The notes beneath the pieces were generated by a model. It was not told the origin of the DNA and did not search any database. It worked only from the letters and a program-made list of their open reading frames with translations. The translations under genes were made by a program, and so were the position numbers. This document shows, piece after piece, positions 3,275 to 27,697 of a DNA stretch of 37,911 bases. The stretch covers positions 1-37,911 of the forward strand of contig CANCXL010000017.1 of NCBI GenBank assembly GCA_947381905.1. Reading direction: 5' to 3'. The DNA is from an uncultured Clostridiaceae bacterium. GTDB taxonomy: Bacteria > Bacillota > Clostridia > TANB77 > CAG-465. The stretch's first letter is position 1. Every line of letters starts with the position of its first letter.

Positions 3275-6200
3275 CTAATTCTCTTGTTCTCTTCTATTTC
3301 TAACTGCTACTAAAAGAATTCCTGCAATTGATACGATTGCTGCTGTAAAGAATATTGTAAGTGCAATATCTCCTGTATTTAGTACTCGATCATTAGTTAT
3401 ATCTAGTACTGTTTCTTCTGTATTTATTTCTATCTCATGTGGTGTTGTATCTATTACATAATCTCCTGGTGCTTCAAGTTCTGTGTATGTATATCTTCCA
3501 TATGGTATATCTTCAAAAATAAATTCACCATTTTCATCTGTTACACCTTCTACAACATAATCTGTCTCTAAACTTTTTAATTCAAATTTACAATTTGGTA
3601 TTGCGTCCCCAGTTAAGAAATCTCTTTTCTTAAGTACTACTTTAGATGATTTTCTACGGTTTGCAACCTCCATTTTTTCTGTAATCCAGTTTCCATCTTC
3701 ATCGTATTGCGCTGTAAATCTATGAGGTTCTGTATTTATATTGTATATATCTGGTGCTTGAATTTCTACATATTCATATTCAACGCCATTTTTTAATAAA
3801 TCTGTTGCAATATATGCATCACCGTTTTCATCTGTTACTGAACTTAAAATTATATTTCCAGATAAATCTCTAATTTCAAATACACATTTAGGAACTGGCT
3901 CCCCTGTTAGAGCATCTTTTTTAGTTATTATGTTTTTTACATTTGAATCTTCAAGTATTCCTTGATAAGTATTTGTATCTATGTTTTGCTCATTTAGTTC
4001 AACTTTTACTACTTCTTCTGATAGCTTATATCCAAGAGGTGCTTCTACCTCTTTAAAATAATATGTTCCAAGAGGGATACCATGAAGTGTTACCATACCA
4101 TTTTCATTTGTAATAAGTTCAGTTTCAATATATTCACCATCTAAATTTCTATAATATAGTGGTTTTGAGCATTCGGCATCTGTATATACTTTATATTTAG
4201 CTCCTGCAATATATACTACTTTATTTTCTTCTAAATAGTTAATTATTTCCTCTTCTTTTAAAGTTTGTAGTTTTTCAATTATTCCCTTTACTTGTTCATC
4301 AAGATTTTCTCGACTTATTTCTTTACCATTTAAAACAACCTTATTGTTAGTTGAGGATGATAATTTAATTAATGTAAGCATTGCTCTATCATAATCATTT
4401 ACAAAATCTTCTGTATCAAATGTAATGTCTACATCTGTTGTATTTGTATTATCTAATGTGATTTCTTTAATATCTGTATTAATTTTATATGGAGATGTTG
4501 TTTCAAGCTCTTTTACATAGTAATTACCTGATGGATAATCCATATTTGATGTATCAAGTTCTACTCCTTCTTGAACTTCAACTAAATCTATAAGATTATC
4601 CTTATCTATTATTTTATCTCCATTTGAATTTACAAATTCTTGATTTGCGTATATTCCAAATAATGATTTCTTTACTATTTGTGGTTCAGATAAAAATTCT
4701 AAATCCACAAAAGATTTTTTAACTTTTATCTTTAATTTTTGTCTAACGTTATTTAAATCCTTTGCTAGACTTTTAACTCTTACTAGTTCATCTGAATTTT
4801 CTAATATAACATTATCAATATTTGTATCAGTAATATATCCTTTTGGAGTTACAGACTCCTCTATTCTATATTCCCCTAAATATAGATCTTTAGTAGAAGC
4901 TGTACCATCATCTTGTGTAGTTATTGTATCTACTAATGTACCTGCTGTTAAATATGTATAGTTTCCATCAGGAGACTTAATATCATTTACTGCATATATT
5001 TTATATTCTACTCCTTTAAGTCCACCTTCTGTATATTTAGGGATTTTTTTATCACCATAATCTGTCTTTTCTGTATCTGCGCTTGTTAATAGTTCTCCTT
5101 TTTTAGATATTTCTATTTTTCCTTTTAATGGCTCGTTTGGCATATCTACTATATAATATAAATCTCTTTCGGTTCCCGTAGCATTATCTTCTACACCCAT
5201 TGCAGCTTTATCTATTAGTACATATTTACCACCTTTATCTTTATTACCAATATCTGCATCATTTTCTGGTAGACGCCATTGCTCATGTCTATAATATCCT
5301 GCTGGTGCTTGAGTCTCATATATTATATATTCTCCAGCATCTAGCTTATTTGGTAGGCTTACAAGTCCGTTAGCATCTGACTCAAACTCATCTGTTACAC
5401 CTTTTCCCATATCTTGAGAAACCCATTCATTTCTTTTTACATCCCATACTTTAAATTTTGCCCCTGCAAGTTTTACATTCTCATTTGTATCTGCATCAGT
5501 TTTTTGAACTTGTAAATACATAGTTACTTGTTTTTCTTCTACAATTCTATACTCTCTTTGATCTTGCTTTGTTATAACAACTGGTTCTGGTTTAGAGAAG
5601 AAATGAGTATGTGCTCCACTATTACTTCCTCTTATCTCAGTTATAGTATAATTTCCAAAAGGTATAGTATATGGATAGTACTTTTCTCTTGATTTTTCTT
5701 CTACAAAATCTGCATATCCATTTTTATCTATTGTCACATCATAGTATGTATTTTCATCACTATCTAATGTTAATCTAAGAACTGCTCCAACCGCTGGATC
5801 TTCTGGTGTTCCCTGACTATTGTAATCAAATTTAACTACTTCAATTCTACCACGTTTTACTCTTTCTTTAGATTCGTTTGTAGACTCAATTAATTCTACC
5901 GTCTGAGCTCTTCTGTCTTCTGAAAATACATATACTGTATCATCTATTAAATATCCTTTTGGAGCTTTAGTTTCTTTAACATAGTATGTACCAGTTCTTA
6001 AAGTACCAGTTTTGGCACATAAATAACCTTGCTCATCTTTTTGATCTACAGTAATGACAACAATTGGATTTGTTAATGCCTCATCTCTATATACAGTGTA
6101 TTCTGCTCCTTTAAGTTCTGCATCACCTTGAACATAGTCTGCTGCATCCGCATCAGTTCTATCTTCATCTGTTTTTCTCATTTTAATGCTCATTTTTTTT

Positions 6201-7783
6201 GATTTATCTACCTTAGTAAATTCATATGTTTTACCATTTTCAGTAATTGATACATCAAAATTTTCTAGCTTTAAAGCTTCATCTGGAACAATAGACTCTT
6301 CTATTTCATATGTACCATATGGTACATTTTCTATTCTACATATTCCATCTTCTCCAGTCACATTAGAATAATATACTTGAGAAGGATCTGATTTTAATGT
6401 TGCCTTAAACTGTGAGCCAACTAAATTTATTTCCCTATCATAATCTGTGCCATCAAGTCTTTTTAGTATTTCTATATTACCTTTTATAACATTTTCTGTT
6501 ACTGGTTGTGTAGGATATAAATTTGACGCAGATAAAGTAACACTGTATGTGTCATTAGATAATAAATATCCAACTGGAGCCTTTATTTCCCTAATTGTAT
6601 ATGCTCCAAGAAGTAAAAACTTAGTTGTACCTGTTCCATCATCTCCTATTGTAACCTCATCTACTTTATTTCCGTTTGAATCATATATACCATAAATAGC
6701 ACCAGCAAATTTTGCATCACCTTGTGCAGTTCCTGTTTCACTATCTCTTTTTTGTAATGTTATTTTCCCACCAACAACTTCTAATCCTAAAACATTCATA
6801 GTATCTGATGGTGTGGATTTAATTCCACCTGGACTTAACAACTCTTGAATTCTTACACCATTGTGTAATCTTTCACTATTATATATAAGTTCAACAGCTC
6901 CATCATTTGGCACACTGCTTCCTGCATATTTAACTCTTACGTTTCCATTCCATACTGATGCCCAATTTGGAGATACAGTTACTACAATGTTATTTCCATC
7001 TTTTGTCATAGTAACCCCATCAGGAGTTAAACTGTTATCTACAATCCATCCAGAATCTTGGAAATTTCCATTATTATCTGTAAGTACAAGAGTCTGACCT
7101 GGATTTACTCTATAATATCCATCACTTATCTTTTCTCCACCACTTATTGTACTAAAGTTTATTGGATAATCACTAGCATTTTTAGGCTGATTTGCAGCAA
7201 CAAATTCTTCTAATGCTTGATACTGAGCCTTTACATACACTTCTGTATTCCAAAAACCTTTATTTGCAATTATATTTGAAATGTCATCCCAGTCTACATA
7301 GCCACTTCCCCCACCTTTAGTGGCATTTAAGGTTTCTTTCCATACAAACATTTGAACAGCAGCTCTATGAGCATAGAAGTTCTGAGCAGTAGTTCCATGA
7401 ACTACAGATCTAAACCAATATCCAGCAAGACGTATATTATTTTTTTGTGTTTCTCCTATTGAATTCCAATATTCAGAAGAATCATTTTCATTATACGTTT
7501 GACCATCATCTGTCCATATTCCGTGTTGAATACAAAAAACTATTTTAATTTCTCCTGTATTCTTATTTGTTAACTGGAACATCATAATTCCCCCATGTTC
7601 AGCAAGGCTTGTTGTTGCCCAGTCATTTACTTTTTGACCATTTCCCCCAACCCAGGAAAATGGTACAGCTACCTTTCTTGGAAAGCTAAGTCTCCAATCT
7701 TCGGCAGCTTTAACAGAGTTCTTACTAAATATTGTAAAACACAATACAAAAGCAAAAACTAAAAAACATTTTAACTTTTTCAT
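3275..7783 (-). CDS. Large SpaA-type surface adhesin with N-terminal thioester domain
   Basis: A 1,502-residue secreted wall or membrane protein. Residues 1-27 are a signal peptide (MKKLKCFLVFAFVLCF ... KAA). Next comes a TQXA-type thioester domain: Cys84 in FCIQHG and Gln144 in the motif VQMFVW match the Cys and Gln that form an internal thioester able to bond host amines. From about residue 339 there are ten SpaA/prealbumin-like domains, each opening with a phrase like KITLQKRD and closing with E-x-x-AP-x-GY (for example EIKAPVGYL, ETQAPAGYY), where Lys and Glu usually form isopeptide bonds. The C-terminus is VLNTGD, a hydrophobic helix and RNRRE: a sorting signal lacking the Pro of LPxTG. 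ATG 7783 was chosen because GAGGTG is 7 nt upstream; an ATG 6 nt earlier is too close. No sortase gene is nearby. Confidence 0.92.
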   Translation of the reverse strand: MKKLKCFLVFAFVLCFTIFSKNSVKAAEDWRLSFPRKVAVPFSWVGGNGQKVNDWATTSLAEHGGIMMFQLTNKNTGEIKIVFCIQHGIWTDDGQTYNENDSSEYWNSIGETQKNNIRLAGYWFRSVVHGTTAQNFYAHRAAVQMFVWKETLNATKGGGSGYVDWDDISNIIANKGFWNTEVYVKAQYQALEEFVAANQPKNASDYPINFSTISGGEKISDGYYRVNPGQTLVLTDNNGNFQDSGWIVDNSLTPDGVTMTKDGNNIVVTVSPNWASVWNGNVRVKYAGSSVPNDGAVELIYNSERLHNGVRIQELLSPGGIKSTPSDTMNVLGLEVVGGKITLQKRDSETGTAQGDAKFAGAIYGIYDSNGNKVDEVTIGDDGTGTTKFLLLGAYTIREIKAPVGYLLSNDTYSVTLSASNLYPTQPVTENVIKGNIEILKRLDGTDYDREINLVGSQFKATLKSDPSQVYYSNVTGEDGICRIENVPYGTYEIEESIVPDEALKLENFDVSITENGKTYEFTKVDKSKKMSIKMRKTDEDRTDADAADYVQGDAELKGAEYTVYRDEALTNPIVVITVDQKDEQGYLCAKTGTLRTGTYYVKETKAPKGYLIDDTVYVFSEDRRAQTVELIESTNESKERVKRGRIEVVKFDYNSQGTPEDPAVGAVLRLTLDSDENTYYDVTIDKNGYADFVEEKSREKYYPYTIPFGNYTITEIRGSNSGAHTHFFSKPEPVVITKQDQREYRIVEEKQVTMYLQVQKTDADTNENVKLAGAKFKVWDVKRNEWVSQDMGKGVTDEFESDANGLVSLPNKLDAGEYIIYETQAPAGYYRHEQWRLPENDADIGNKDKGGKYVLIDKAAMGVEDNATGTERDLYYIVDMPNEPLKGKIEISKKGELLTSADTEKTDYGDKKIPKYTEGGLKGVEYKIYAVNDIKSPDGNYTYLTAGTLVDTITTQDDGTASTKDLYLGEYRIEESVTPKGYITDTNIDNVILENSDELVRVKSLAKDLNNVRQKLKIKVKKSFVDLEFLSEPQIVKKSLFGIYANQEFVNSNGDKIIDKDNLIDLVEVQEGVELDTSNMDYPSGNYYVKELETTSPYKINTDIKEITLDNTNTTDVDITFDTEDFVNDYDRAMLTLIKLSSSTNNKVVLNGKEISRENLDEQVKGIIEKLQTLKEEEIINYLEENKVVYIAGAKYKVYTDAECSKPLYYRNLDGEYIETELITNENGMVTLHGIPLGTYYFKEVEAPLGYKLSEEVVKVELNEQNIDTNTYQGILEDSNVKNIITKKDALTGEPVPKCVFEIRDLSGNIILSSVTDENGDAYIATDLLKNGVEYEYVEIQAPDIYNINTEPHRFTAQYDEDGNWITEKMEVANRRKSSKVVLKKRDFLTGDAIPNCKFELKSLETDYVVEGVTDENGEFIFEDIPYGRYTYTELEAPGDYVIDTTPHEIEINTEETVLDITNDRVLNTGDIALTIFFTAAIVSIAGILLVAVRNRREQEN

Positions 7784-7806
7784 AATCATTCACCTCATAA
7801 CTAAAA

Positions 7807-13395: not shown

Positions 13396-13560
13396 TAAGA
13401 TGTTGTATTTAAGTTTCCACCTAAATATTTAGGCCACCCTTTTCTTAATTGGTCGTTGTTCTCGGCCATTATCCATCGCTATTTCTAGGTTTGGGTTACT
13501 ATTTTTTATATATTTTCTTAATATGTTTAAACTTCCATTTATATCTGCATTTATTTTCTT
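13396..13560 (-). ncRNA. Possible omega RNA (reRNA) of TnpB
   Basis: TnpB guides are made from the 3' end of tnpB and the IS right end. Here that zone holds the 14-bp palindrome CCTAAATATTTAGG (13420-13433) and a conserved-looking tail with GTGGAAACTTAAATACAACA just downstream of the stop. Placement follows from the family rule; limits and existence are inferred, and the RNA may extend through the hairpins at 13333-13395. Confidence 0.3.
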
Positions 13561-14703
13561 TCCTTCATTTGTTACAAATATTCCTCTACTTACCCTTCTT
13601 TTTTTATTATAGTTTTCTTTTGTTATTTCTTCTTTATCTAATGCACTTACTCCTGATGTATATTTCTCACTTATCTTTATTACATCTATTCCTTCTAATT
13701 TTGCTTTATATTCTATCTTTTGAGTTAATATTTGTATTGGTACTTGTACAAAGTTTGTGTTATAATCCATTCCTTGTTTTATATCTTTTAAGTCTCCTAT
13801 TACTATCTTTCCGCATTTATTTTTCTTTGCATACTCTATTACCATTTTTGATACTTTATGCATATATGTATTCATATAATTTCTTCTATAATCATATAAC
13901 TTATTTATTCTTTTAGTATTTGGCACATGTTTCTTATTTTTATTTTCTTTAGATAATTTATTTATTCTTTGTAATTTACTTATTTCATTTAGTATATACT
14001 TATTCTTACTCTTTGCTTCTTTTCCGGATACAAGTAATGAATCATTATTATCTCTATTTGTACATGCTACTATATTATTTAATCCTAGATCTATTGACAT
14101 TATATTTTCATATTTACTCTTTTCTTTTTCTTGCTTTTCATATATTATATTCATCTCTATTTTCTCTCCTTTTTTAGTTATCTTTATCATTTTAATGCTT
14201 TTAAAATTTACTAGCTTTTTCAATTTATATGGTATTGAAAAATTTAAACTTTTGACTTTATATTTTTCTTGCATTTTCTTTGAAAGAGATAACTTTAATA
14301 TATTTTTATCTATTCTTATTGCATATTTAGTAAATATTATTTCTTGTATATTTTCTCCTTTGTATCTTGGCTCTCTTGGTTCTCCTTTAAATTTTGCTTT
14401 ATTTTTATTATACTCATCTATTGACTTTAAGTAACTTTTATAATTTTGTACTACATTCATTATTACTTGTTGTAATGTATGAGAATGTAGATATTCACTA
14501 TGCCAGTTATTTTGTCTATATTCTTTGTATATAGGGCTTTGTATTATATTTACACTTTTATTTCCATCTATATATTTCTCTTTTTCTCTTAATTCATGTA
14601 GAAGAATATTATACACTTTGGTTGTATGCCAAATTAAATCATTTATTATTTCTTTTTGCGCATTATTTATATTGCTTATAACATATTTAAAACTTAATCT
14701 CAT
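13429..14703 (-). CDS. tnpB: TnpB (IS605 OrfB) RNA-guided nuclease with altered active site
   Basis: A 424-residue OrfB/TnpB protein. RuvC-I is intact (MSIDLGLNN, Asp205) and RuvC-III is NADINGSLNI (Asp387). In RuvC-II the usual E-D-L is VIGDL, with Gly303 where the catalytic Glu normally sits. A glutamate does occur later at Glu346 in ISEKYTS, a place where rearranged TnpB lineages are known to move it. The usual zinc finger after YTS is missing: GVSALDKEE replaces the Cys-x-x-Cys, and the protein has only two Cys (214 and 297). Length is normal and there is no frameshift. It may be an active rearranged enzyme or a nuclease-weak derivative. ATG 14703 lies directly after a hairpin holding the ribosome binding site. 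Confidence 0.9.
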   Translation of the reverse strand: MRLSFKYVISNINNAQKEIINDLIWHTTKVYNILLHELREKEKYIDGNKSVNIIQSPIYKEYRQNNWHSEYLHSHTLQQVIMNVVQNYKSYLKSIDEYNKNKAKFKGEPREPRYKGENIQEIIFTKYAIRIDKNILKLSLSKKMQEKYKVKSLNFSIPYKLKKLVNFKSIKMIKITKKGEKIEMNIIYEKQEKEKSKYENIMSIDLGLNNIVACTNRDNNDSLLVSGKEAKSKNKYILNEISKLQRINKLSKENKNKKHVPNTKRINKLYDYRRNYMNTYMHKVSKMVIEYAKKNKCGKIVIGDLKDIKQGMDYNTNFVQVPIQILTQKIEYKAKLEGIDVIKISEKYTSGVSALDKEEITKENYNKKRRVSRGIFVTNEGKKINADINGSLNILRKYIKNSNPNLEIAMDNGREQRPIKKRVA

Positions 14704-17085: not shown

Positions 17086-17502
17086 TTATTTTTCTTTAAT
17101 TTCTGTACTTACTTCATATTCAGTAATTTGTGTTTCAAGAGATAAATTGTTAACATCTATTTCTTTTTTATTTACATCTATTTGAGTATTTTCATTTTCA
17201 TAATGTACCCAATTATCTCCATTAGAATCTGTATATTCCTTTCCATCTAATTGTACAACAACGCCATCATCTTTTATCATAGTTACCTTTATAACTTCTT
17301 TTATATTTTCTATTAATTTACCATCTGTTGCTGCATTAACACTAAAGAATCCTCCAACTAAAACTAGCATTATAACTGCAAGTACCGCAAAGACTTGCTT
17401 TTTCATATTAATTTTCATACTTTCCTCACTTTCTAAATTAGATATAACTATTTTAGATTTTACATTTTTTAATATATATTTTTTTAATTCATTATTTTCC
17501 AT
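17086..17502 (-). CDS. Putative membrane anti-sigma factor
   Basis: A 138-residue single-pass protein: a short cytoplasmic N-terminus of about 33 residues (MENNELKKYILKNVKSK), a membrane helix at about 35-57 ending VNAA, and an extracytoplasmic part of 80 residues rich in Asp/Glu/Lys. The start overlaps the sigma gene end by 11 bp, with GAGGG upstream. Position and topology fit the anti-sigma partner of the ECF factor, but no zinc-binding anti-sigma motif is visible, and homology to a named family was not recognised. The function is inferred from context. Confidence 0.65.
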   Translation of the reverse strand: MENNELKKYILKNVKSKIVISNLESEESMKINMKKQVFAVLAVIMLVLVGGFFSVNAATDGKLIENIKEVIKVTMIKDDGVVVQLDGKEYTDSNGDNWVHYENENTQIDVNKKEIDVNNLSLETQITEYEVSTEIKEK

Positions 17503-18079
17503 AGTTATACCCTCTTTCCTTAAATTCTTTTTTTACTATTTTCCTTAATCTATGTAATTTAACTTTAATATTTGTTTGTGAAATATTTAGTATACTAGAT
17601 ATCTCTTTAATCTTCACAGAATTATAATAAAACATAACAAATATATTCTTTTCTTCCTCTTTCATACTTTCTACTATATCTATAAGTATTTTACTTTTTT
17701 CGTTTTGCTCTGCCAGCTTTTCTATATTAATACAAGAATCTATTTTATTTTCATAATCATTAATATCCTCAACAATACAATTTAAATTGTAATCACGATA
17801 TCTCTTTTTTATTAGGTTTTTCGTAACACCTAACATATATAATCGTATATCTGTACTTTTATCTATTTTTAAGTAGTTTTTCCATAATATAACAAATACG
17901 TCAGATAAAGTCTCCTCTATATCTTCTGAATTTGACATAGCATTTTTTAATATAGTATAAATATAATTATTATATTTGTTTATCACTCTTTCAATATCTA
18001 ATCTACCATTTTCTATAAAATCATTTATAGTCTCTTTACTATTCAATTTAGATCTAAACTCCTTTAAAAGCGCTTTCAC
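17492..18079 (-). CDS. ECF-type RNA polymerase sigma factor
   Basis: Up to 195 residues. Region 2 spans about 35-100 (INKYNNYIYTIL ... DIEETLSDVFVILWKN ... RLYMLGVTKNLIKKRYRDY), and region 4 about 130-185 (KIKEISSILNISQTNIKVKLHRLRK), the layout of small extracytoplasmic-function sigma factors. The first possible start is GTG 18079, which lies only a few bases below the -10 and lacks a ribosome site; an inner TTG at 18040 follows AAAGGAG by 12 nt and is an alternative. It overlaps the putative anti-sigma gene. Target genes are unknown; the two neighbouring surface proteins are candidates. Confidence 0.88.
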   Translation of the reverse strand: MKALLKEFRSKLNSKETINDFIENGRLDIERVINKYNNYIYTILKNAMSNSEDIEETLSDVFVILWKNYLKIDKSTDIRLYMLGVTKNLIKKRYRDYNLNCIVEDINDYENKIDSCINIEKLAEQNEKSKILIDIVESMKEEEKNIFVMFYYNSVKIKEISSILNISQTNIKVKLHRLRKIVKKEFKERGYNYGK

Positions 18080-18171: not shown

Positions 18172-21100
18172 CTAGTTTCTTTTTTTATTTACAACTATAA
18201 TTATTCCTACTATAGCAATAACTACTAAAGCTATAACAACTATAATAATACTGCTATTTGATGTGTTTTGTTTATTATCTTGTTGTGACTCATTTTGTTC
18301 TTGTTTTTCATTATATGATAAAATATATTTTCCAAATTCTTGTGTATTTATTTGAATACTTTCTTCATCGATATATTCATAATCGATTTTTTCTAAAGTG
18401 CTATCATCTTTTATTTCATAAATTCCAGCAAATACTTTTGTTGAATCTAATTTAAATCTTATAGCAATATTTGAAGTTTCTAAATCTATTCTATCTTGAT
18501 TTCCATTTACTAAATAAATTTCTAATGCTTCACTTAAACTTCCGACTAAACTTTCAAACTCTTTATTAATAGTTAACTTTTTATTTATTAAAGTTGCGTT
18601 TTTAATATCTTGTTTTGTAGAGATTTTTACTAAAATATCTCCTTGTGAATAATTATAATCATTACTCATCAAATTATTATCTTCTTTATCGCCAGCACTT
18701 GCCACTTGATTATAGTTTGGTATATAAGCTATTTGGTTATTTTTATATGAATTATTTTCATTTATTTGGTTTTGGTCTTCAGATGGTTTATCTTTTTCAT
18801 CTTCAGAAGGTTTTATAGGCTCTATTGGACTAACAGGTTTATCTGTATCTTTTACTATCCAATCAACCTTAGTTATTACTTTTCCTTCATTACCATATTT
18901 ATCTATATATTCAAATATAAATTCTCCATTTTCATTAAATGTATAAGTATTTTTACCATCATTATTTGTAATTGTGATTGCATCGTCTGCTGTTATTGTT
19001 ACAGTAACGTTTTCTTTAGTTTGAGTTGTTATATCATAAGATATATTAATATTTGGTAAAATTTGAATCCAATCAACTTTTATTGTAGCCTTTCCTACAT
19101 TTCCAGCTTTATCTTTAAACTCAAGTTCTATTTCATCATTATCTTCAAACCTAACTTCATAAGTACTATTATCGATTTTCTTGATATTTACATTTTCAGT
19201 TAATATCTCAATATCTTCATCAAATATTATTGTTGCTAGTACATCTTTATTTGTAATTTCTGTTGTACTATATGAAACTTTTGCTGTTGGTACATCTTTA
19301 TCTATATTATCTACCTTAACAGTTATTGTACCTTGGTTTCCAGCTTTATCTATAAATTCAATTATATATTCTCCATTTTGTGCAACTTTTAACTCGTAAG
19401 TATTATTTCCTTTCTCTTCTATTTCTAGACCTTCTGTTAATATTTCTACTTCTTCATTAAATTTTACTGTTGCAATTACATCTTTATTTGTAGTTTCTGT
19501 TGTACTATATGAAATCTCTGCTGTTGGTATATCTTTATCTATATTGTTTATACTTACAGTTAAAGAATTTCTGTTTCCAACTTTATCTACAAATTCAATT
19601 ATATGTTCTCCATTTTCATTAAATTTGATTGTAAAGATTTCATTGTTTCCTACGTTTTCTATATTTACTATGTCTAAATCTTGATTTAATATTATAACAT
19701 CTTCACTAAATGTAATTATTACTTCTACATCTTCATTTGTAGTTTCTGTTGTTATGTATGAAACCTCTGCAGTTGGTATAGTTTTATCTATCCAATCAAC
19801 ATTTAATGTTCCACTAACTCTATTTCCAGCTTCATCTTCAAATTCAATTACACGTTTAGAATTATATTCAAATCTTAATTTAAATACGTTATTTTCATAT
19901 TCTACTAAATATGCATCTTCTGTTAACGCTTTAACTTTTTTATCAAATTTAATTGTTGCTATTACATTTTCTTTAGTAGCAGTAATAATATCATATTCAA
20001 CTGTAGCTGTTGGTGGAGTTTTATCTATCCAATCAACTGTTGCAGTAATACTTCCAGCAATACCATATTCATCTATGTAATCAAATTTAAAGCTTTCATT
20101 TTTCTTAAATGTATATTGGTTGCTTCCATTATTATTTACGATATTAACAGGTGTTTCAAGATCTGCTACTAATGTTACAGTTACATCTTCATTTGTAAGT
20201 TTTTGTGTGCTATATACAAGTTTAAGCCTTGGTGCTTCTCTTATCCATGTTACTTTAGCGGTTGCTGAATTTCTATTTCCGGCTTCATCTTCAAATTCAA
20301 ATGTAAACTCTCCATTTTTATCTAATGTATATGTATCACTTCCATTATTATTTAATATTTTAACCTTTTTATTTGGTTTTAAAGTTACTGTTACAGGAGC
20401 TATAGTAATATCTTGTGTACTAAATTCAAAAGTTGCTGTTGGCAATTCTTTATCTATCCAGTCAACATTTATACTCTTTTGTCCTTTGTTTCCAACTTTA
20501 TCTTTAAATTCTAATAGAAGATTTGTATTCTTTTCAAATACTATTGTATAAGTTCCATCTTCATTTTTTGTAACTTCTAAATTTTCATTTAATATTGTAA
20601 TTTCTTCGCTAAATTTTAGTGTTGCTATTACATTTTTATTTGTTAACTTTTTAGTATTGTATGTTACCTCCACTGTAGGAATAGTTTTATTTATCCAGTC
20701 TACAGTAGCAGTTATACTTCCTTTTACTCCAAATTCATCTACATATTCAAATGTAAATGACTTATTTTCTGTAAATACATATTTATTATTACCATTATTA
20801 TTTGTAATTTCTATATTTACATCATTTATTGTTACTAATGTAACCTCTACATCTTGGTTTGTCATCTCAGTTGTACTATAGATTAAATCAAGACCTGGTA
20901 TTTTATTTATCCAACTAACAGTAGCTGTTGCTTCTCCTTTATTTCCAGCTTTATCTACAAATTCAAATTTAAAGCTTCCATTTTCTGTAAATGTATATTC
21001 GTTTCCATTATTATTTAAAATTTCAACTTCTTCATTTGTTTTTAAAGTAGCTCTTACAGGATTTGCTGTACTTTCTGTTATATTATATTCGATTTCCCCT

Positions 21101-24100
21101 ATTGGAACATCTTTATCTATCCAATCTACAGTTGCCGTTACTTCTCCTTTTACCCCAAACTCTCCTGTATATTCAAATGTAAAGCTTCCATTTTTTGTAA
21201 ATATATATTCATTGCTTCCATTATTATTATCTACAGTTATTTTATTATTTGCTGATAAAGTAACAACTACATCTTGATTAGTAAGCTCTTTAGTACTATA
21301 TGAAAGACTTGCTTTTGTTTTTTCTCTTATACAATCAATAGTTGCTATTGCCTGTCCGCAGTTTCCTGCATCATCTACAAATTTTATTGTATACGTTCCA
21401 TTGTTTTTATATACAATATCATAAGTTCCATCTTCATTTTTAGTATATTCTAAACCTTCATTTAGAATAGTTATCTTTTCACTTGGAGTTAAAGTTACTG
21501 TTACAGGATTTAAAGTATTTTGCGTTGTACTATAAGACACTTGTGCTGTTGGTAACGTTTTATCTATCCAATCTACTTTTACTGTTTTACTTCTAGAAAT
21601 TCCATATTCATCTGTAAAGTCAAAAGTGAATGTTCCATTTTGAGTGAATGTATAACTATTACTTCCATTATTATTGTCTATAGTAATTCTAGCATTTTCA
21701 GATTCTATTGTAGCTGTTACATCCTTATTTGTAAGACTTGTTATATCATAAGTGACTTTTACAGTTGTTGGATCTTTTATCCAGTCTATACTAGCCTCTG
21801 CTGCTCCTATATTTCCTGCTTTATCTTTAAATTCAAATGTATATGTTGTGTTCCTATCAAATACAATAGAATAGCTTCCATCTTCATTTTCTGTATAATC
21901 TAAGTTTTCATTTAGAATTTCTATCTCTTCACTTGGTTTTAAAATTACAGTTACAGGCTCTATTGTATTTTCTGTTGTGCTATATTCAATTTCTGCAGTT
22001 GGGACATCTTTATCTATCCAATCGACATTGGCTGTTGCTTCTCCCTTGTTACCATATTCATCTACAAATTTAAATGTAAAACTTCCATTTTCTGTAAATG
22101 TATACTCATTTCCATCATTATTGGTAATTTCTATATTTGTGCTTGCATTAACCAATTTTGCTACTACATCTTTATTTGTTAATTCTTCTGTGCTATATTC
22201 GATTTCAGCTGTTGGTTTTACTGCTTCAATTTTAGTCCTATCTTCATATAAGTTTATCATTGCAACAGATGCAAAAATACCATATGTATCCATTTCAAGT
22301 TTTACATATTGTCCTTTTACACTTTCACTAAATTCTATTCTTCTTAGCTGTGTATCTTGTGGACAATTCTCTATTGTTCCTACCTGAGTCCATTCTTGTG
22401 CATCCATACTTACATATACTCTTGCATTTTTTATATAATCTGGATCATCTGGTCTATATTTTTTTTGAATAAATTCTAAAGCCGAAATATATCTAGCTTC
22501 ATCTAGTTTTATACAAATAAATGGTTTAATTTCTTGCTGTCTAACATCATATCTAAAATCTGTATGCCACAATGTATTAATATTTGCATCAATTACATTT
22601 GGAGCATAATATGGTCTTTTAGAATCTATTGATTGAGTAGAATAACTATGAATAGATAAATGTTTTACTGGTATATATTTAGCTGTATTTGGTTGACTAT
22701 CTTCTGTAAAGTTATATTCAACACTATCGCTTGCTGTATTAATTCCAGTTGCTTTTGTTCTAACATAAAGTGTTCTACTTTCTGTAACAATAGGTTCATT
22801 TTCCTCAAATGAAGTCCATTTACCATTATCTATTTTCCACTCAAGTGTATCAGTATTACTAATACCAATTAATCTATTTTCTAAATCATTTACATATTGT
22901 GCCCTTTGAGGAGCAATTCCTTTTTTAATGTTAAGTCTATATTGTGTCTCATCTCCATCAAAAAGTATTTTTATTTTATTTTCTTCTGTTATTTGCTCTA
23001 TTTCTTCAGGTGTTAATTGATGATTATCTGCACTTGTTGTTTTCCAAGTAACACCACCATCTATACTATATTTCCAATTTCTAGTTTTATATTCATCAAA
23101 TAATGATATTCTTCCTGCATTATTTCCATCAAATGAAAATTCTGCTACAAGTTTAGCACTTACATCTTCATAAAAATTAAACATGCTTACTGCAATAAAA
23201 CTCATACTAGATGAGGCAGCTTGTGTCACTTTTCCAACTATTTTTATATATTGTCCTCTAGTTGGTTCAAAGTCTACACTCTTTGGAGTAATATCATTAC
23301 TATTTCTATATGTCCAGTTGGTCTGTGATACAACTTCTGTCCAATTTTCTCCATCCATACTTACAGAGATTACTGCATTTACAATTTTACCATTTCCACC
23401 AGCTACTGGGAAAAATTCTAAGGCAGTTAAATTTTTAGGTTCATCTAGTTTAATAACTATTGTTTTAACCCTATCACTTCCATCCCATGCAGAATGCCAA
23501 TTTGTATTAATATTGCCATCAATTGCATTTACTGCATCTCTTCCTTGAGCTGTAGCTGCTGATGATGCGCTATGAACAGATAAATGAGAAATTGGTATAT
23601 ATTTTCTTGTACTTGATTCATTATCCTCTGTAAAATGATATGTGACACTATTATTTGATGCTAAATGCACTCCTGTAGCACCAGCTTTTACAATTATATC
23701 TCTATTTCCTGTTAAATCTGGTTCATACTCTTTATAATATGTCCATTCATCATTCTCATTTAATTTCCATTGCATAGTAGGTATTGCACCCATAAGTTTA
23801 TTTTCTAAGTCGTTGGCATATAAAATGCTTGGAAGTCCAGCTGATTCTAATATATCTATTTTGTATAAATTTTCTTCAGAATAATTTACACCAACAATAT
23901 GAACATATATATCATTTTCAGATGTAATAGAATTTATTTCTTCCTCAGTTAGTTGTAATTTATGCTCTTCATCTGCTGTAAATGATACTTCATTCCATGT
24001 ATTCTTACCATCTAAACTATAATCCCAACGTATACCATTTCCATCATAACGACTTGATAATACTATTTTTCCTGCATCTTCTCCATCAAATGAGAATGTT

Positions 24101-26343
24101 GCGATAGATGTATCCATTTGCCCTAACAAGAAATTTCCCATTAATCTTGTAATACTTGGTTGTAATACTTCTGTTGAACTATTTGGTAAAACACTTGCTT
24201 CCTTTAAAACTCTTGTTTGTAGTAATGTAAATTTATAAGAAGTTCCTATACTTGTTAGTTTAGGTTTGATTTGATTAGTCATTTGATACATTGGTAAAGG
24301 ATAATATTTTAAACTATTTGCTATTTCTTCTGCAAGTTCATAATATTGTTCTTCTGTTTTACTATCAGATGAATTATATGTTAATATCAATCCATACCAC
24401 GCATTTAAGTTCAATGGCTGAATTTCCAATGCTTTTCTATATGCTTCTTCTTTTTTTGTTAAATCTGTATATGAATCCGCAAGATATACAAACATTTGAC
24501 TTTGTTTATATGTATCTTCATGATTAATAACTTCTTGTGCAATTTGTATATATGTTCCAGTATATCCACTAGCATAAGGAGCTGTTGACCATCCTAAAAG
24601 TATTGTTGATCCTGTGTATGCCCATCCACTAACATCATTGTCAATCCCCCAATATCCTTCACCTTTACTATTTTGAAAATAGTTTATATGAGCTGCATGA
24701 CCTGGTTGTCCAACAACTGCGTCTGGAAGACCAAGAACACCTCTAATATTTGATCCTACTTTAGAGATACCTCCACAAACTGCACCAGTACCAAATTTAT
24801 TTCTCATATTCATCCATACTTTATAAACTTTATTAGCTGATGTACCTCTTGATATTTGCAATTTATATTCTGGTTCATCTACACCACCAGGAATAGTATA
24901 AACAACATCCCATAATCCTATTCTTTTTTCTTCATTATTTGAATCTTTTACAGAAAATAATTCATTAAAATAATCTTGATTTTCTTCAGCATAATAAACA
25001 GGATTTGAATAATTTGGCCATACATATGATATATATCTATGTGGCCACAAACGAGCCCCGCCTTCTTTTTGAATTAATTCTCTAACATATGCATTTAACC
25101 ATAGCATTGATTCATCATCTATATTGTTTACCATAACATAACGCATTTCTTCAACAGTATAATTCTCAAACCATTTGTTATAATCTATACCATCTGGGCC
25201 TTGAAATAAATTATTTTTATGCATATATTTAATAATAGCATATCTTCTAACCGAATCCGACTTATTTTCTGGAATCGATGAGTTCATCCATAATCCAACT
25301 GTAGTTGAATGTGTCAATGATAGCGAAATGGCCATTTTAGTATATAAATCACCTAATACAGTTCCATATTTTGTCACTTGTGTATTTTCAAAATCTTCTT
25401 TATAGTTTCTATATAGTCTTGAAAGTTCTGTTAATGAATTATAATAGTTATTTCCTAATGGTTTTCCACCTAAAATATAGTATCTAAGAACATCTTGATT
25501 ATTCATTAACCAATCAATAGCAGCCTTATTATCATCACTTTCATTATAAAATGAATTTAGTGTATAATTTCCTACACTACTAATAAACTTTCTTTTTAGC
25601 ATAGTATATTCTAACTCGCTTGTAACATCATTTTGGCTATTATATAATTCTTTAATGATTTCATCGTATTCTTCAACCATTGGAAATGCTGATGAATTAT
25701 TGTTGTCATTAGTTAATTTAGCGTCTGCATAAACAGAATGGTCTGATGAATTACCTTTTAATTGATCAGCTATTAACCTAATATAATTTGCATTTTCAAG
25801 CTCTATCTTGACAAAACTTGCTTCTTGTAGTGGCAATTTTATTTCTTCATATTTAGCAGTTCCCCAATTTTTTCCATCTTCAGATGTAAAAATAGAAAAC
25901 TTTACACCATCGCCTCTTGTTGAGGTGGTATTTAAACCAACAAATGCTGTGAAATATCTATAATCATAATTACTAATATCATAAGTAACTTGAGAATTAG
26001 CATGAGCAAATATTCCCTTTTTAAATGTAGTTGCTCTTCCTTCATACATTAAAGTAAGTGGATTATTTGAGTTATCCTTATCTAGTGATAAACTTCCCCA
26101 GCCAACTTTTGCATTTTGATATTTAATATCTGACAAATAAGTAAATTGATCGTTATTATCTATTTGTGCATTTAAATGTGAACTCACAGAAGGTAACATA
26201 TTACTTTGATTATATAAAACGGATTGTTCTTGTATATTTGTTACACTTTGTGCATTTGTCTGGTTAAATATATTAGAAATAATTAGCATTATAAAACAAC
26301 AAACTGATATAAAATTTATTCTTATGTTGTTTTTATCTTTCAT
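18172..26343 (-). CDS. Giant multidomain surface protein with transglutaminase-like core
   Basis: A 2,723-residue exported protein. Order: signal peptide 1-31; NPCBM-type carbohydrate-binding domain about 65-210 (FTYLSDIKYQNAKVGWGSL, GIFAHANSQVTYDIS); helical region 220-410; transglutaminase-like core about 410-600 with candidate triad Cys523 (AVCGGISKVG), His549 (GQPGHAAH) and Asp568 (YWGIDND); TPR-like helices about 615-690; then two copies of a block made of a spacer (745-910 and 1067-1218, each opening FSFDG) and an F5/8C discoidin domain (915-1060 and 1222-1368). Fifteen Ig-like repeats cover 1375-2497, mostly ending DWIDK. A Pro/Lys/Glu hinge, a 120-residue domain and a membrane helix (2698-2718) with tail NKKRN end it; there is no LPxTG. 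Start ATG 26343 follows AAAGGAGG. Inferred: glycan-bound surface enzyme acting on peptides. Confidence 0.9.
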   Translation of the reverse strand: MKDKNNIRINFISVCCFIMLIISNIFNQTNAQSVTNIQEQSVLYNQSNMLPSVSSHLNAQIDNNDQFTYLSDIKYQNAKVGWGSLSLDKDNSNNPLTLMYEGRATTFKKGIFAHANSQVTYDISNYDYRYFTAFVGLNTTSTRGDGVKFSIFTSEDGKNWGTAKYEEIKLPLQEASFVKIELENANYIRLIADQLKGNSSDHSVYADAKLTNDNNNSSAFPMVEEYDEIIKELYNSQNDVTSELEYTMLKRKFISSVGNYTLNSFYNESDDNKAAIDWLMNNQDVLRYYILGGKPLGNNYYNSLTELSRLYRNYKEDFENTQVTKYGTVLGDLYTKMAISLSLTHSTTVGLWMNSSIPENKSDSVRRYAIIKYMHKNNLFQGPDGIDYNKWFENYTVEEMRYVMVNNIDDESMLWLNAYVRELIQKEGGARLWPHRYISYVWPNYSNPVYYAEENQDYFNELFSVKDSNNEEKRIGLWDVVYTIPGGVDEPEYKLQISRGTSANKVYKVWMNMRNKFGTGAVCGGISKVGSNIRGVLGLPDAVVGQPGHAAHINYFQNSKGEGYWGIDNDVSGWAYTGSTILLGWSTAPYASGYTGTYIQIAQEVINHEDTYKQSQMFVYLADSYTDLTKKEEAYRKALEIQPLNLNAWYGLILTYNSSDSKTEEQYYELAEEIANSLKYYPLPMYQMTNQIKPKLTSIGTSYKFTLLQTRVLKEASVLPNSSTEVLQPSITRLMGNFLLGQMDTSIATFSFDGEDAGKIVLSSRYDGNGIRWDYSLDGKNTWNEVSFTADEEHKLQLTEEEINSITSENDIYVHIVGVNYSEENLYKIDILESAGLPSILYANDLENKLMGAIPTMQWKLNENDEWTYYKEYEPDLTGNRDIIVKAGATGVHLASNNSVTYHFTEDNESSTRKYIPISHLSVHSASSAATAQGRDAVNAIDGNINTNWHSAWDGSDRVKTIVIKLDEPKNLTALEFFPVAGGNGKIVNAVISVSMDGENWTEVVSQTNWTYRNSNDITPKSVDFEPTRGQYIKIVGKVTQAASSSMSFIAVSMFNFYEDVSAKLVAEFSFDGNNAGRISLFDEYKTRNWKYSIDGGVTWKTTSADNHQLTPEEIEQITEENKIKILFDGDETQYRLNIKKGIAPQRAQYVNDLENRLIGISNTDTLEWKIDNGKWTSFEENEPIVTESRTLYVRTKATGINTASDSVEYNFTEDSQPNTAKYIPVKHLSIHSYSTQSIDSKRPYYAPNVIDANINTLWHTDFRYDVRQQEIKPFICIKLDEARYISALEFIQKKYRPDDPDYIKNARVYVSMDAQEWTQVGTIENCPQDTQLRRIEFSESVKGQYVKLEMDTYGIFASVAMINLYEDRTKIEAVKPTAEIEYSTEELTNKDVVAKLVNASTNIEITNNDGNEYTFTENGSFTFKFVDEYGNKGEATANVDWIDKDVPTAEIEYSTTENTIEPVTVILKPSEEIEILNENLDYTENEDGSYSIVFDRNTTYTFEFKDKAGNIGAAEASIDWIKDPTTVKVTYDITSLTNKDVTATIESENARITIDNNNGSNSYTFTQNGTFTFDFTDEYGISRSKTVKVDWIDKTLPTAQVSYSTTQNTLNPVTVTLTPSEKITILNEGLEYTKNEDGTYDIVYKNNGTYTIKFVDDAGNCGQAIATIDCIREKTKASLSYSTKELTNQDVVVTLSANNKITVDNNNGSNEYIFTKNGSFTFEYTGEFGVKGEVTATVDWIDKDVPIGEIEYNITESTANPVRATLKTNEEVEILNNNGNEYTFTENGSFKFEFVDKAGNKGEATATVSWINKIPGLDLIYSTTEMTNQDVEVTLVTINDVNIEITNNNGNNKYVFTENKSFTFEYVDEFGVKGSITATVDWINKTIPTVEVTYNTKKLTNKNVIATLKFSEEITILNENLEVTKNEDGTYTIVFEKNTNLLLEFKDKVGNKGQKSINVDWIDKELPTATFEFSTQDITIAPVTVTLKPNKKVKILNNNGSDTYTLDKNGEFTFEFEDEAGNRNSATAKVTWIREAPRLKLVYSTQKLTNEDVTVTLVADLETPVNIVNNNGSNQYTFKKNESFKFDYIDEYGIAGSITATVDWIDKTPPTATVEYDIITATKENVIATIKFDKKVKALTEDAYLVEYENNVFKLRFEYNSKRVIEFEDEAGNRVSGTLNVDWIDKTIPTAEVSYITTETTNEDVEVIITFSEDVIILNQDLDIVNIENVGNNEIFTIKFNENGEHIIEFVDKVGNRNSLTVSINNIDKDIPTAEISYSTTETTNKDVIATVKFNEEVEILTEGLEIEEKGNNTYELKVAQNGEYIIEFIDKAGNQGTITVKVDNIDKDVPTAKVSYSTTEITNKDVLATIIFDEDIEILTENVNIKKIDNSTYEVRFEDNDEIELEFKDKAGNVGKATIKVDWIQILPNINISYDITTQTKENVTVTITADDAITITNNDGKNTYTFNENGEFIFEYIDKYGNEGKVITKVDWIVKDTDKPVSPIEPIKPSEDEKDKPSEDQNQINENNSYKNNQIAYIPNYNQVASAGDKEDNNLMSNDYNYSQGDILVKISTKQDIKNATLINKKLTINKEFESLVGSLSEALEIYLVNGNQDRIDLETSNIAIRFKLDSTKVFAGIYEIKDDSTLEKIDYEYIDEESIQINTQEFGKYILSYNEKQEQNESQQDNKQNTSNSSIIIVVIALVVIAIVGIIIVVNKKRN

Positions 26344-26536: not shown

Positions 26537-27697
26537 TTAGTTACTATTTTTTATTATTTTTTCAAAGTTTTCTTCAATAAACTTATTATCATTCATCTTA
26601 CACTCTACATATTCTATAAAATTTTCTTTATTAACTTGTTTGTTTTTTACTATATTATTATAGTTTGGATAGTTGTTTTCCAAGTTTTGTCTAGTAACGA
26701 TATATGAGTTATCTGTAAAATTATATTTAATATATTCTACATTTTCAATCAAACTAAACATTGATACAGAATTATATAATAATGCCTTTTGTAAATATAA
26801 ACTTTCTACTATATACCAATCTGTCATATGATAATTTATAATTAGTCCTTTATTTTTTGAATCTATTTCAAATACATATCCAAATTCAGATAAAGGTAAA
26901 CTATTAATTAAATTACCATCATTACTGTTGTCACCTACATAACTATTTTTATATCTAATTATATTATCAATGCCTGATTTTGCTCTATTAAATGGAATAA
27001 CTGGTATTGTTTCATCATTATATTCTTTTTTACTATCTACTACATAATATTCATTTTTGGTATTTCTATTTATTCTATATACATTGCATAACAGTGATTT
27101 ATACACTATCATTTTATCTCCAGTTTCTATACAATACGAAAATCTTGGTGGTACACTATTTAAAACTACATTTCCATAGTCTATTACAAATAATGCTAGT
27201 AATGATACAATGTAATATAGCACACTAATAAATACTCTTAATTTAATTGTACTCCCTTTAAAAAGATTAAACACTCCAACAGTAGATATCATAAGTCCCA
27301 CTATAGAATAAATTGATCCCCAACTACTTTCAGTAGGAAAAATACTAAAAGACAAAAAAACTATTATCAAGCCAAAAAGTAACAACATTATAGATATAAC
27401 TTTATCTTTGCTATAAACTCTTTTTCTTGTATAGTCTATAGTGTCTATTATATTTTCCTCTAACTTTTCTTGATAATGCTCCTTATCTATTTTTTCTCCA
27501 CTTAAAAGCTCATTAATTGTAATATCTAATTCTTCACAAAGTGGTTCAAATAAAGATAAGTCTGGTAAACACCTTCCATTTTCCCATTTAGATACAGAAC
27601 GATCTGATACTCCCATTTTTTCTGCAAACTGTACTTGCGTTAGATTTTTTTCCTTTCTACATTTTGCAATAAATCTACCAATTTTGATTTGATCCAT
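26537..27697 (-). CDS. XRE-family regulator with membrane helices and DUF4825-like sensor
   Basis: A 386-residue protein. XRE helix-turn-helix at 1-62 (LTQVQFAEKMGVSDRSVSKWE), three membrane helices (about 98-118, 127-145, 153-173), then an extracytoplasmic domain of about 200 residues. The stretch QKALLYNSVSMFSLIENVEYIKYNF resembles (in parts) DUF4825-type domains, and GYVFEIDSKNKGLIINYHM precedes it. The N-terminus is nearly that of the XRE protein at 14861-15367. ATG 27697 follows AGGAGGT. It lies just upstream of the giant surface gene but is separated by a terminator. Inferred: a one-component regulator that carries an outside signal to DNA. Confidence 0.82.
   Translation of the reverse strand: MDQIKIGRFIAKCRKEKNLTQVQFAEKMGVSDRSVSKWENGRCLPDLSLFEPLCEELDITINELLSGEKIDKEHYQEKLEENIIDTIDYTRKRVYSKDKVISIMLLLFGLIIVFLSFSIFPTESSWGSIYSIVGLMISTVGVFNLFKGSTIKLRVFISVLYYIVSLLALFVIDYGNVVLNSVPPRFSYCIETGDKMIVYKSLLCNVYRINRNTKNEYYVVDSKKEYNDETIPVIPFNRAKSGIDNIIRYKNSYVGDNSNDGNLINSLPLSEFGYVFEIDSKNKGLIINYHMTDWYIVESLYLQKALLYNSVSMFSLIENVEYIKYNFTDNSYIVTRQNLENNYPNYNNIVKNKQVNKENFIEYVECKMNDNKFIEENFEKIIKNSN

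Follow-up and report, generated by a model that had tools for sequence, protein, structure and literature searches.

The window, a 37,911-nucleotide stretch of DNA from an uncultured Clostridiaceae bacterium, holds a gene for a giant surface protein whose core, by structural modelling and profile comparison, belongs to the transglutaminase superfamily. An invariant Cys-His pair marks this core in all homologues that cover the site, and predicted glycan-binding domains flank it. We favour, with somewhat more belief than doubt, the reading that the protein is a cysteine hydrolase tethered to the cell surface, where it acts, probably as a peptidase, on host glycoproteins; the nature of the substrate is suggested by the modules joined to the enzyme.

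The gene is an intact frame, and its features are listed in Table 1. A preliminary description of the sequence had picked out three motifs as a possible catalytic triad, and these were found in place: AVCGGISKVG begins at residue 521, GQPGHAAH at 545 and YWGIDND at 564, which puts C523, H549, H552 and D568 at the positions given to them. The NPCBM and F5/8C domains named there were both recovered with Pfam, the latter as two to three stretches according to the Pfam count. Weak profile matches to TPR chains, together with the helices of the model, back the TPR-like part, and a signal-like N-terminal segment and a C-terminal hydrophobic helix plus KKRN agree with export and membrane anchoring. 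Core residues 216-745 had no match in the Pfam scan, and the NCBIfam scan matched nothing. Behind the core, a module of 160-170 residues is duplicated (41.5% identity between the copies), each copy preceding one F5/8C domain; Ig-like repeats and the hydrophobic helix follow.

Table 1. Features of the giant gene, in coordinates of the window.
Feature	Residues	Position	Strand	Basis
Whole gene, surface protein	1-2723	18172..26343	-	Intact frame
Signal-peptide-like N-terminus	1-32	26248..26343	-	Sequence
NPCBM (CBM51-type) domain	68-211	25711..26142	-	Pfam PF08305, E 1.5e-24, above cut-off
Helical N-terminal part of core	216-465	24949..25698	-	No Pfam match; model
Transglutaminase-like catalytic domain	~505-600	24544..24831	-	Models, fold search, profile comparison
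Codon of predicted nucleophile Cys523	523	24775..24777	-	76/76 homologues; helix N-terminus in model
Codon of His549, family signature QPxH (Q546, P547)	549	24697..24699	-	76/76 homologues; strand start
Codons of Asn569 and Asp570, candidate third triad residues	569-570	24634..24639	-	N569 74/76, D570 70/76
TPR-like helices	610-745	24109..24516	-	Weak profile matches, model, fold search
Module without Pfam match, copy 1	747-915	23599..24105	-	Repeat; conserved in homologues
F5/8 type C (CBM32-type) domain, copy 1	925-1039	23227..23571	-	Pfam PF00754, best E 2.6e-26
Module without Pfam match, copy 2	1066-1223	22675..23148	-	Repeat of copy 1
F5/8 type C domain, copy 2	~1224-1368	22240..22674	-	35% identical to copy 1
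~15 Ig-like repeats, 70-79 aa each	~1375-2500	18844..22221	-	Repeat spacing
C-terminal membrane anchor, hydrophobic helix then KKRN		18175..18255	-	Sequence; like tail in 24/66 relatives

The fold of the core was computed with AlphaFold (mean pLDDT 93 for the whole core). Because the whole 530-residue core, used as query in a fold search, retrieved mainly TPR proteins, the catalytic part (residues 395-609) was also modelled alone, with a mean pLDDT of 76. In the whole-core model a helix begins at C523 and a strand at H549, and N569 directly follows the next strand. When the catalytic part was compared with the PDB by a structural aligner, the best 50 rows all belonged to the transglutaminase superfamily, with factor XIII (Z 6.9, rmsd 5.1, 144 aligned), 3isr (Z 6.2), TgpA (5.2) and TglA (5.0), as well as TG2, TG3, 3kd4, XPC and menin; yeast and mouse PNGase were also matched (3esw, Z 4.7; 2f4o, Z 4.2). 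The top 18 Foldseek hits of the same part consisted of 3isr and transglutaminases, at weak E-values (best 0.28). All structural Z values are moderate (below 8); the argument for the fold rests on the purity of the match list and on an independent profile test.

For this test, a diverse alignment of the core was scored against 33 PF01841, 16 C39 and 20 NlpC proteins, all from Clostridia genomes. The score was 33 against the PF01841 proteins (P 2e-5 to 6e-5), compared with 14 for C39 and 11 for NlpC, and column-shuffled controls had a mean of 11 and a maximum of 16. Identities as NlpC/P60 or C39 peptidases, whose scores lie at shuffle level, were therefore rejected. An earlier comparison from a shallow alignment had been weak (P 0.019) and became clear once divergent relatives were added. 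The profile alignment places C523 onto the transglutaminase Cys, and GLPDAVVG onto GIPARYVEG. With HMMER, none of 19 core sequences matched Pfam PF01841 at E up to 1; three other PF01841 genes are present in the window's own genome. The preliminary description had called the core transglutaminase-like and proposed structure prediction with a fold search as a check. Both were run and place it in that superfamily: as modelled, the core is a real transglutaminase-superfamily domain of papain/transglutaminase fold, in which the Cys begins a helix and the His lies on the sheet that comes after it.

Alignment of the 76 homologues that cover the site upheld one part of the proposed triad and corrected another. 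C523, Q546, P547 and H549 are identical in every one, which for C523, Q546 and H549 holds down to 26% identity and with the Enterococcus proteins included; such conservation is more than chance would give. H552, offered as an alternative histidine, is Leu, Ile or Tyr in most homologues. D568 is Asp in 65, and divergent members have Gly, Tyr, Ser, Ala, Trp or Arg at this position; for that reason it is not the third triad residue. The candidates for this role, as judged from the alignment, are instead Asn569 and Asp570. N569 lies four residues past W565, which is the spacing of the transglutaminase Asp (as in PF01841 sequences). At the position of D570 the homologues that lack Asp have Ser, Asn or Gly, and the Enterococcus proteins carry Tyr in place of N569, followed by Asp. 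Asn, Asp and even Ser or Thr have been documented as third residue in the transglutaminase superfamily (PMC4866520). At six loci (L037, L040, L048, L053, L081 and L094) the enzyme is present as a tandem pair of diverged copies; the second member of the L053 pair keeps the Cys and His, with no equivalent of Asn569 or Asp570.

The glycan-binding flanks attributed to the core were borne out at domain level, with both Pfam families above cut-off, and they recur in full-length relatives (NPCBM in 23/23 and F5/8C in 21/23 by Pfam). Both kinds are predicted to bind host glycans. The Enterococcus relative has two PF03272 mucin/carbohydrate-binding modules ahead of the same core, and neither NPCBM nor F5/8C is detectable in it. 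One core has thus been combined with different glycan-binding modules in two lineages, and these fusions would point to a glycoprotein as the substrate.

The attachment of the enzyme to the cell is interchangeable within the family, a feature newly observed here: an anchor in cis, to membrane or wall, alternates with a dockerin. The tails of 66 relatives (the window protein among them) were classified: 42 are dockerins and 24 are anchors to membrane or wall, and the computed tree of relatives requires at least five switches between the two states. Pfam Dockerin_1 was found in 13 of 23 scanned relatives, and Pfam detected no dockerin module in the window protein. An ORF starts 7-55 bp downstream of 20 of the 42 dockerin genes, whereas the 24 others have no such ORF (Fisher p 1.5e-5, a value that ignores the relatedness of the sequences). 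Their products, ~230-270 residues long, begin with a signal-like segment; at the C-terminal end of 18 of the 20 lie an (L/I)P-x-(A/T)-G motif plus a hydrophobic tail, the other two being cut by contig ends. A Pfam cohesin was detected in 16 of 21 aligned downstream ORFs, one of the 21 (L066) being outside the 20. The enzyme with its dockerin and the neighbour with its cohesin and wall anchor probably form a docking pair, as we infer from this gene order.

The genome of the window itself holds cohesins and about 15 dockerins. Its sampled dockerin proteins are BspA-LRR, CAP and GH25 proteins rather than mucin-sugar hydrolases; clusters of such proteins occur at L202, L203, L204 and L208, where the dockerins are joined to BspA-type leucine-rich repeats, CAP or GH25 domains, and L204 also has three near-identical small cohesin-like ORFs. 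Judging by gene content, these clusters and the L204 cohesins would be a separate cohesin-dockerin system with unusual cargo.

The enzyme family was found in 106 of 385 genomes of the same order (about 28%), in 2 of 36 genomes of the taxonomic family to which the window belongs and in 7 of 391 genomes in a wider draw from the class, and a phylum-wide draw gave no convincing further relative. The nearest copies, 78-82% identical, reside in MAGs labelled Bacilli. This, together with the patchy spread, is the pattern that lateral transfer would give. Six Enterococcus plasmids, five of them predicted to be conjugative, carry a relative (best 26% identity, E 2e-18); no relative was found in viral contigs or phage records. 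At L089:7824-11822 a frame break or an assembly error divides the enzyme gene into two neighbouring ORFs (108 + 1219 aa), and intact near-identical copies exist at L083 and L103.

None of the gene neighbours in the window recurs beside homologues. Directly downstream of the giant gene lie an ECF-type sigma factor (PF08281) and a 138-aa single-helix membrane protein (17086-18079, minus strand), which were rejected as parts of a system since they are absent beside homologues. Directly upstream is an HTH regulator fused to DUF4825 (26537-27697, minus strand). An IS605 OrfB/TnpB protein with a Cas12f1-like_TNB domain is encoded ~3.5 kb from the giant gene (13429-14703, minus strand), and a second large surface protein of 1504 aa with eight SpaA repeats is encoded at 3275-7789 (minus strand); the VFCIQHG motif near the start of the latter resembles a thioester domain.

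The preliminary description knew of no system with this domain order. We found none in the open-licence literature either, where searches for the family, the QPxH signature, the combination with CBM51-type or mucin-binding modules and a swappable anchor accompanied by a cohesin gene next door gave no earlier description. The fold and the flanking modules are of known kinds. The plan is very like that of the M60-like (PF13402) mucin peptidases such as Clostridium perfringens Zmp, which are large and secreted, combine NPCBM/CBM51 and F5/8C/CBM32 domains with Ig or Fn3 repeats and sometimes dockerins, and have host glycoproteins as their proposed targets (PMC3267712). Of the solved chains, 7js4 is nearest in sequence, and its match lies in the NPCBM domain. 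The catalytic domain is unrelated, however, having a Cys-His transglutaminase fold instead of a zinc peptidase, and the window protein contains no HExxH and no PF13402 match. Co-occurrence of the family with M60 was considered and dropped, PF13402 being nearly absent (1/18) from the genomes compared, namely the window's own and those of family carriers. In a 2012 survey, no MEROPS peptidase had CBM51 and no cysteine-peptidase family was listed with CBM32 (PMC3267712).

With bacterial Transglut_core (PF01841) proteins and the putative cysteine proteases of the 3isr type, the family shares the common fold, the Cys at a helix start, the His on a strand, a G-(I/L)-P-(A/S) motif between them and a candidate third residue at W+4. 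It differs from them by the absent PF01841 match, the QPxH signature, a candidate third residue that is Asn or Asp (rarely Ser), a large helical domain in front and the TPR-like helices behind. The dockerin-borne relatives resemble, by description, transglutaminase-like dockerin proteins and an NlpC-like X-dockerin module of Ruminococcus flavefaciens FD-1 (PMC2930009, PMC3573020), the former grouped with peptidases by their authors (PMC2930009); NPCBM or F5/8C domains are not described there, and the NlpC profile does not match our family. The Limousia mucinolysome likewise assembles dockerin-bearing peptidases and CAZymes of gut bacteria on cohesins, and the main text of that paper does not mention a transglutaminase (PMC12997984). 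Its scaffoldins are multi-cohesin, whereas here one enzyme is followed by one small sortase-type cohesin-like protein.

In the mechanism that we favour, the protein would be an enzyme of the transglutaminase superfamily that is secreted and stays anchored in the membrane. Its NPCBM and two F5/8C modules would bind host-type sugars and its ~15 Ig-like repeats would serve as a stalk, while the Cys523-His549 dyad, oriented by Asn569 or Asp570, would attack an amide bond. The most likely activity would be that of a cysteine peptidase, hydrolysing the polypeptide of mucins and other host glycoproteins. In relatives the same enzyme has either an anchor to membrane or wall, or a dockerin that would probably dock to the small cohesin surface protein next door. 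The proposal that the protein cuts or cross-links peptides while held on glycans is thereby narrowed: surface anchoring and glycan-binding flanks stand, and cutting is favoured over joining because of the dockerin company, the mucin-binding fusion and the M60-like plan. Several findings weigh against the favoured reading, namely the weak Foldseek E-values, structural Z values below 8, the lack of a PF01841 match, the non-canonical and variable third residue, the sampled dockerin cargo of the window's own genome, and the absence of a dockerin from the window copy.

A true transglutaminase, which would cross-link host or bacterial surface proteins or couple the bacterium covalently to a host protein while held on glycans, is in our view unlikely. 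Its case comes from the top structural matches (factor XIII, TG2 and TG3, with TglA of S. pyogenes also matched), but these stem from the common fold and from how large the eukaryotic set is, and the putative cysteine protease 3isr reaches a similar Z. Moreover, the candidate third residue, Asn or Asp, stands in another context, and the dockerin-borne partners of known complexes are mostly hydrolases. We consider it improbable that the core is a catalytically dead fold kept as an adhesin or structural spacer. Such a fold could explain the variable third position and the L053 paralogue, yet loss of the Cys would be expected in some lineages of a dead domain, and Cys523, Gln546 and His549 persist in every homologue that covers the site. 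Similarly improbable is a peptide:N-glycanase-type amidase that removes N-glycans from host glycoproteins: the PNGase matches and the flanking glycan-binding modules would suit it, but PNGases rank below other superfamily members and mucins are mainly O-glycosylated.

Current accounts of how gut bacteria degrade mucins and glycoproteins rely mostly on glycosidases and zinc peptidases (M60). The cysteine hydrolase that we favour, which is widespread, built on an M60-like plan, missing from Pfam and frequent in one uncultured order, would be a new route of such degradation and a new enzyme family acting on these substrates, and it can be tested directly as a single 530-residue fragment. The dockerin-bearing enzyme gene followed by a one-cohesin anchor gene would make a simple natural docking pair. 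More tentatively, and with rather more doubt than belief, the family may be the founding one of mucin-directed cysteine peptidases with a transglutaminase fold, targeted by CBM51/CBM32, shared by gut clostridia and enterococcal plasmids, and held by a swappable anchor (a membrane helix in cis, or a dockerin with a private next-gene cohesin in trans). If so, it would link a catalytic type to CBM51/CBM32 targeting for the first time.
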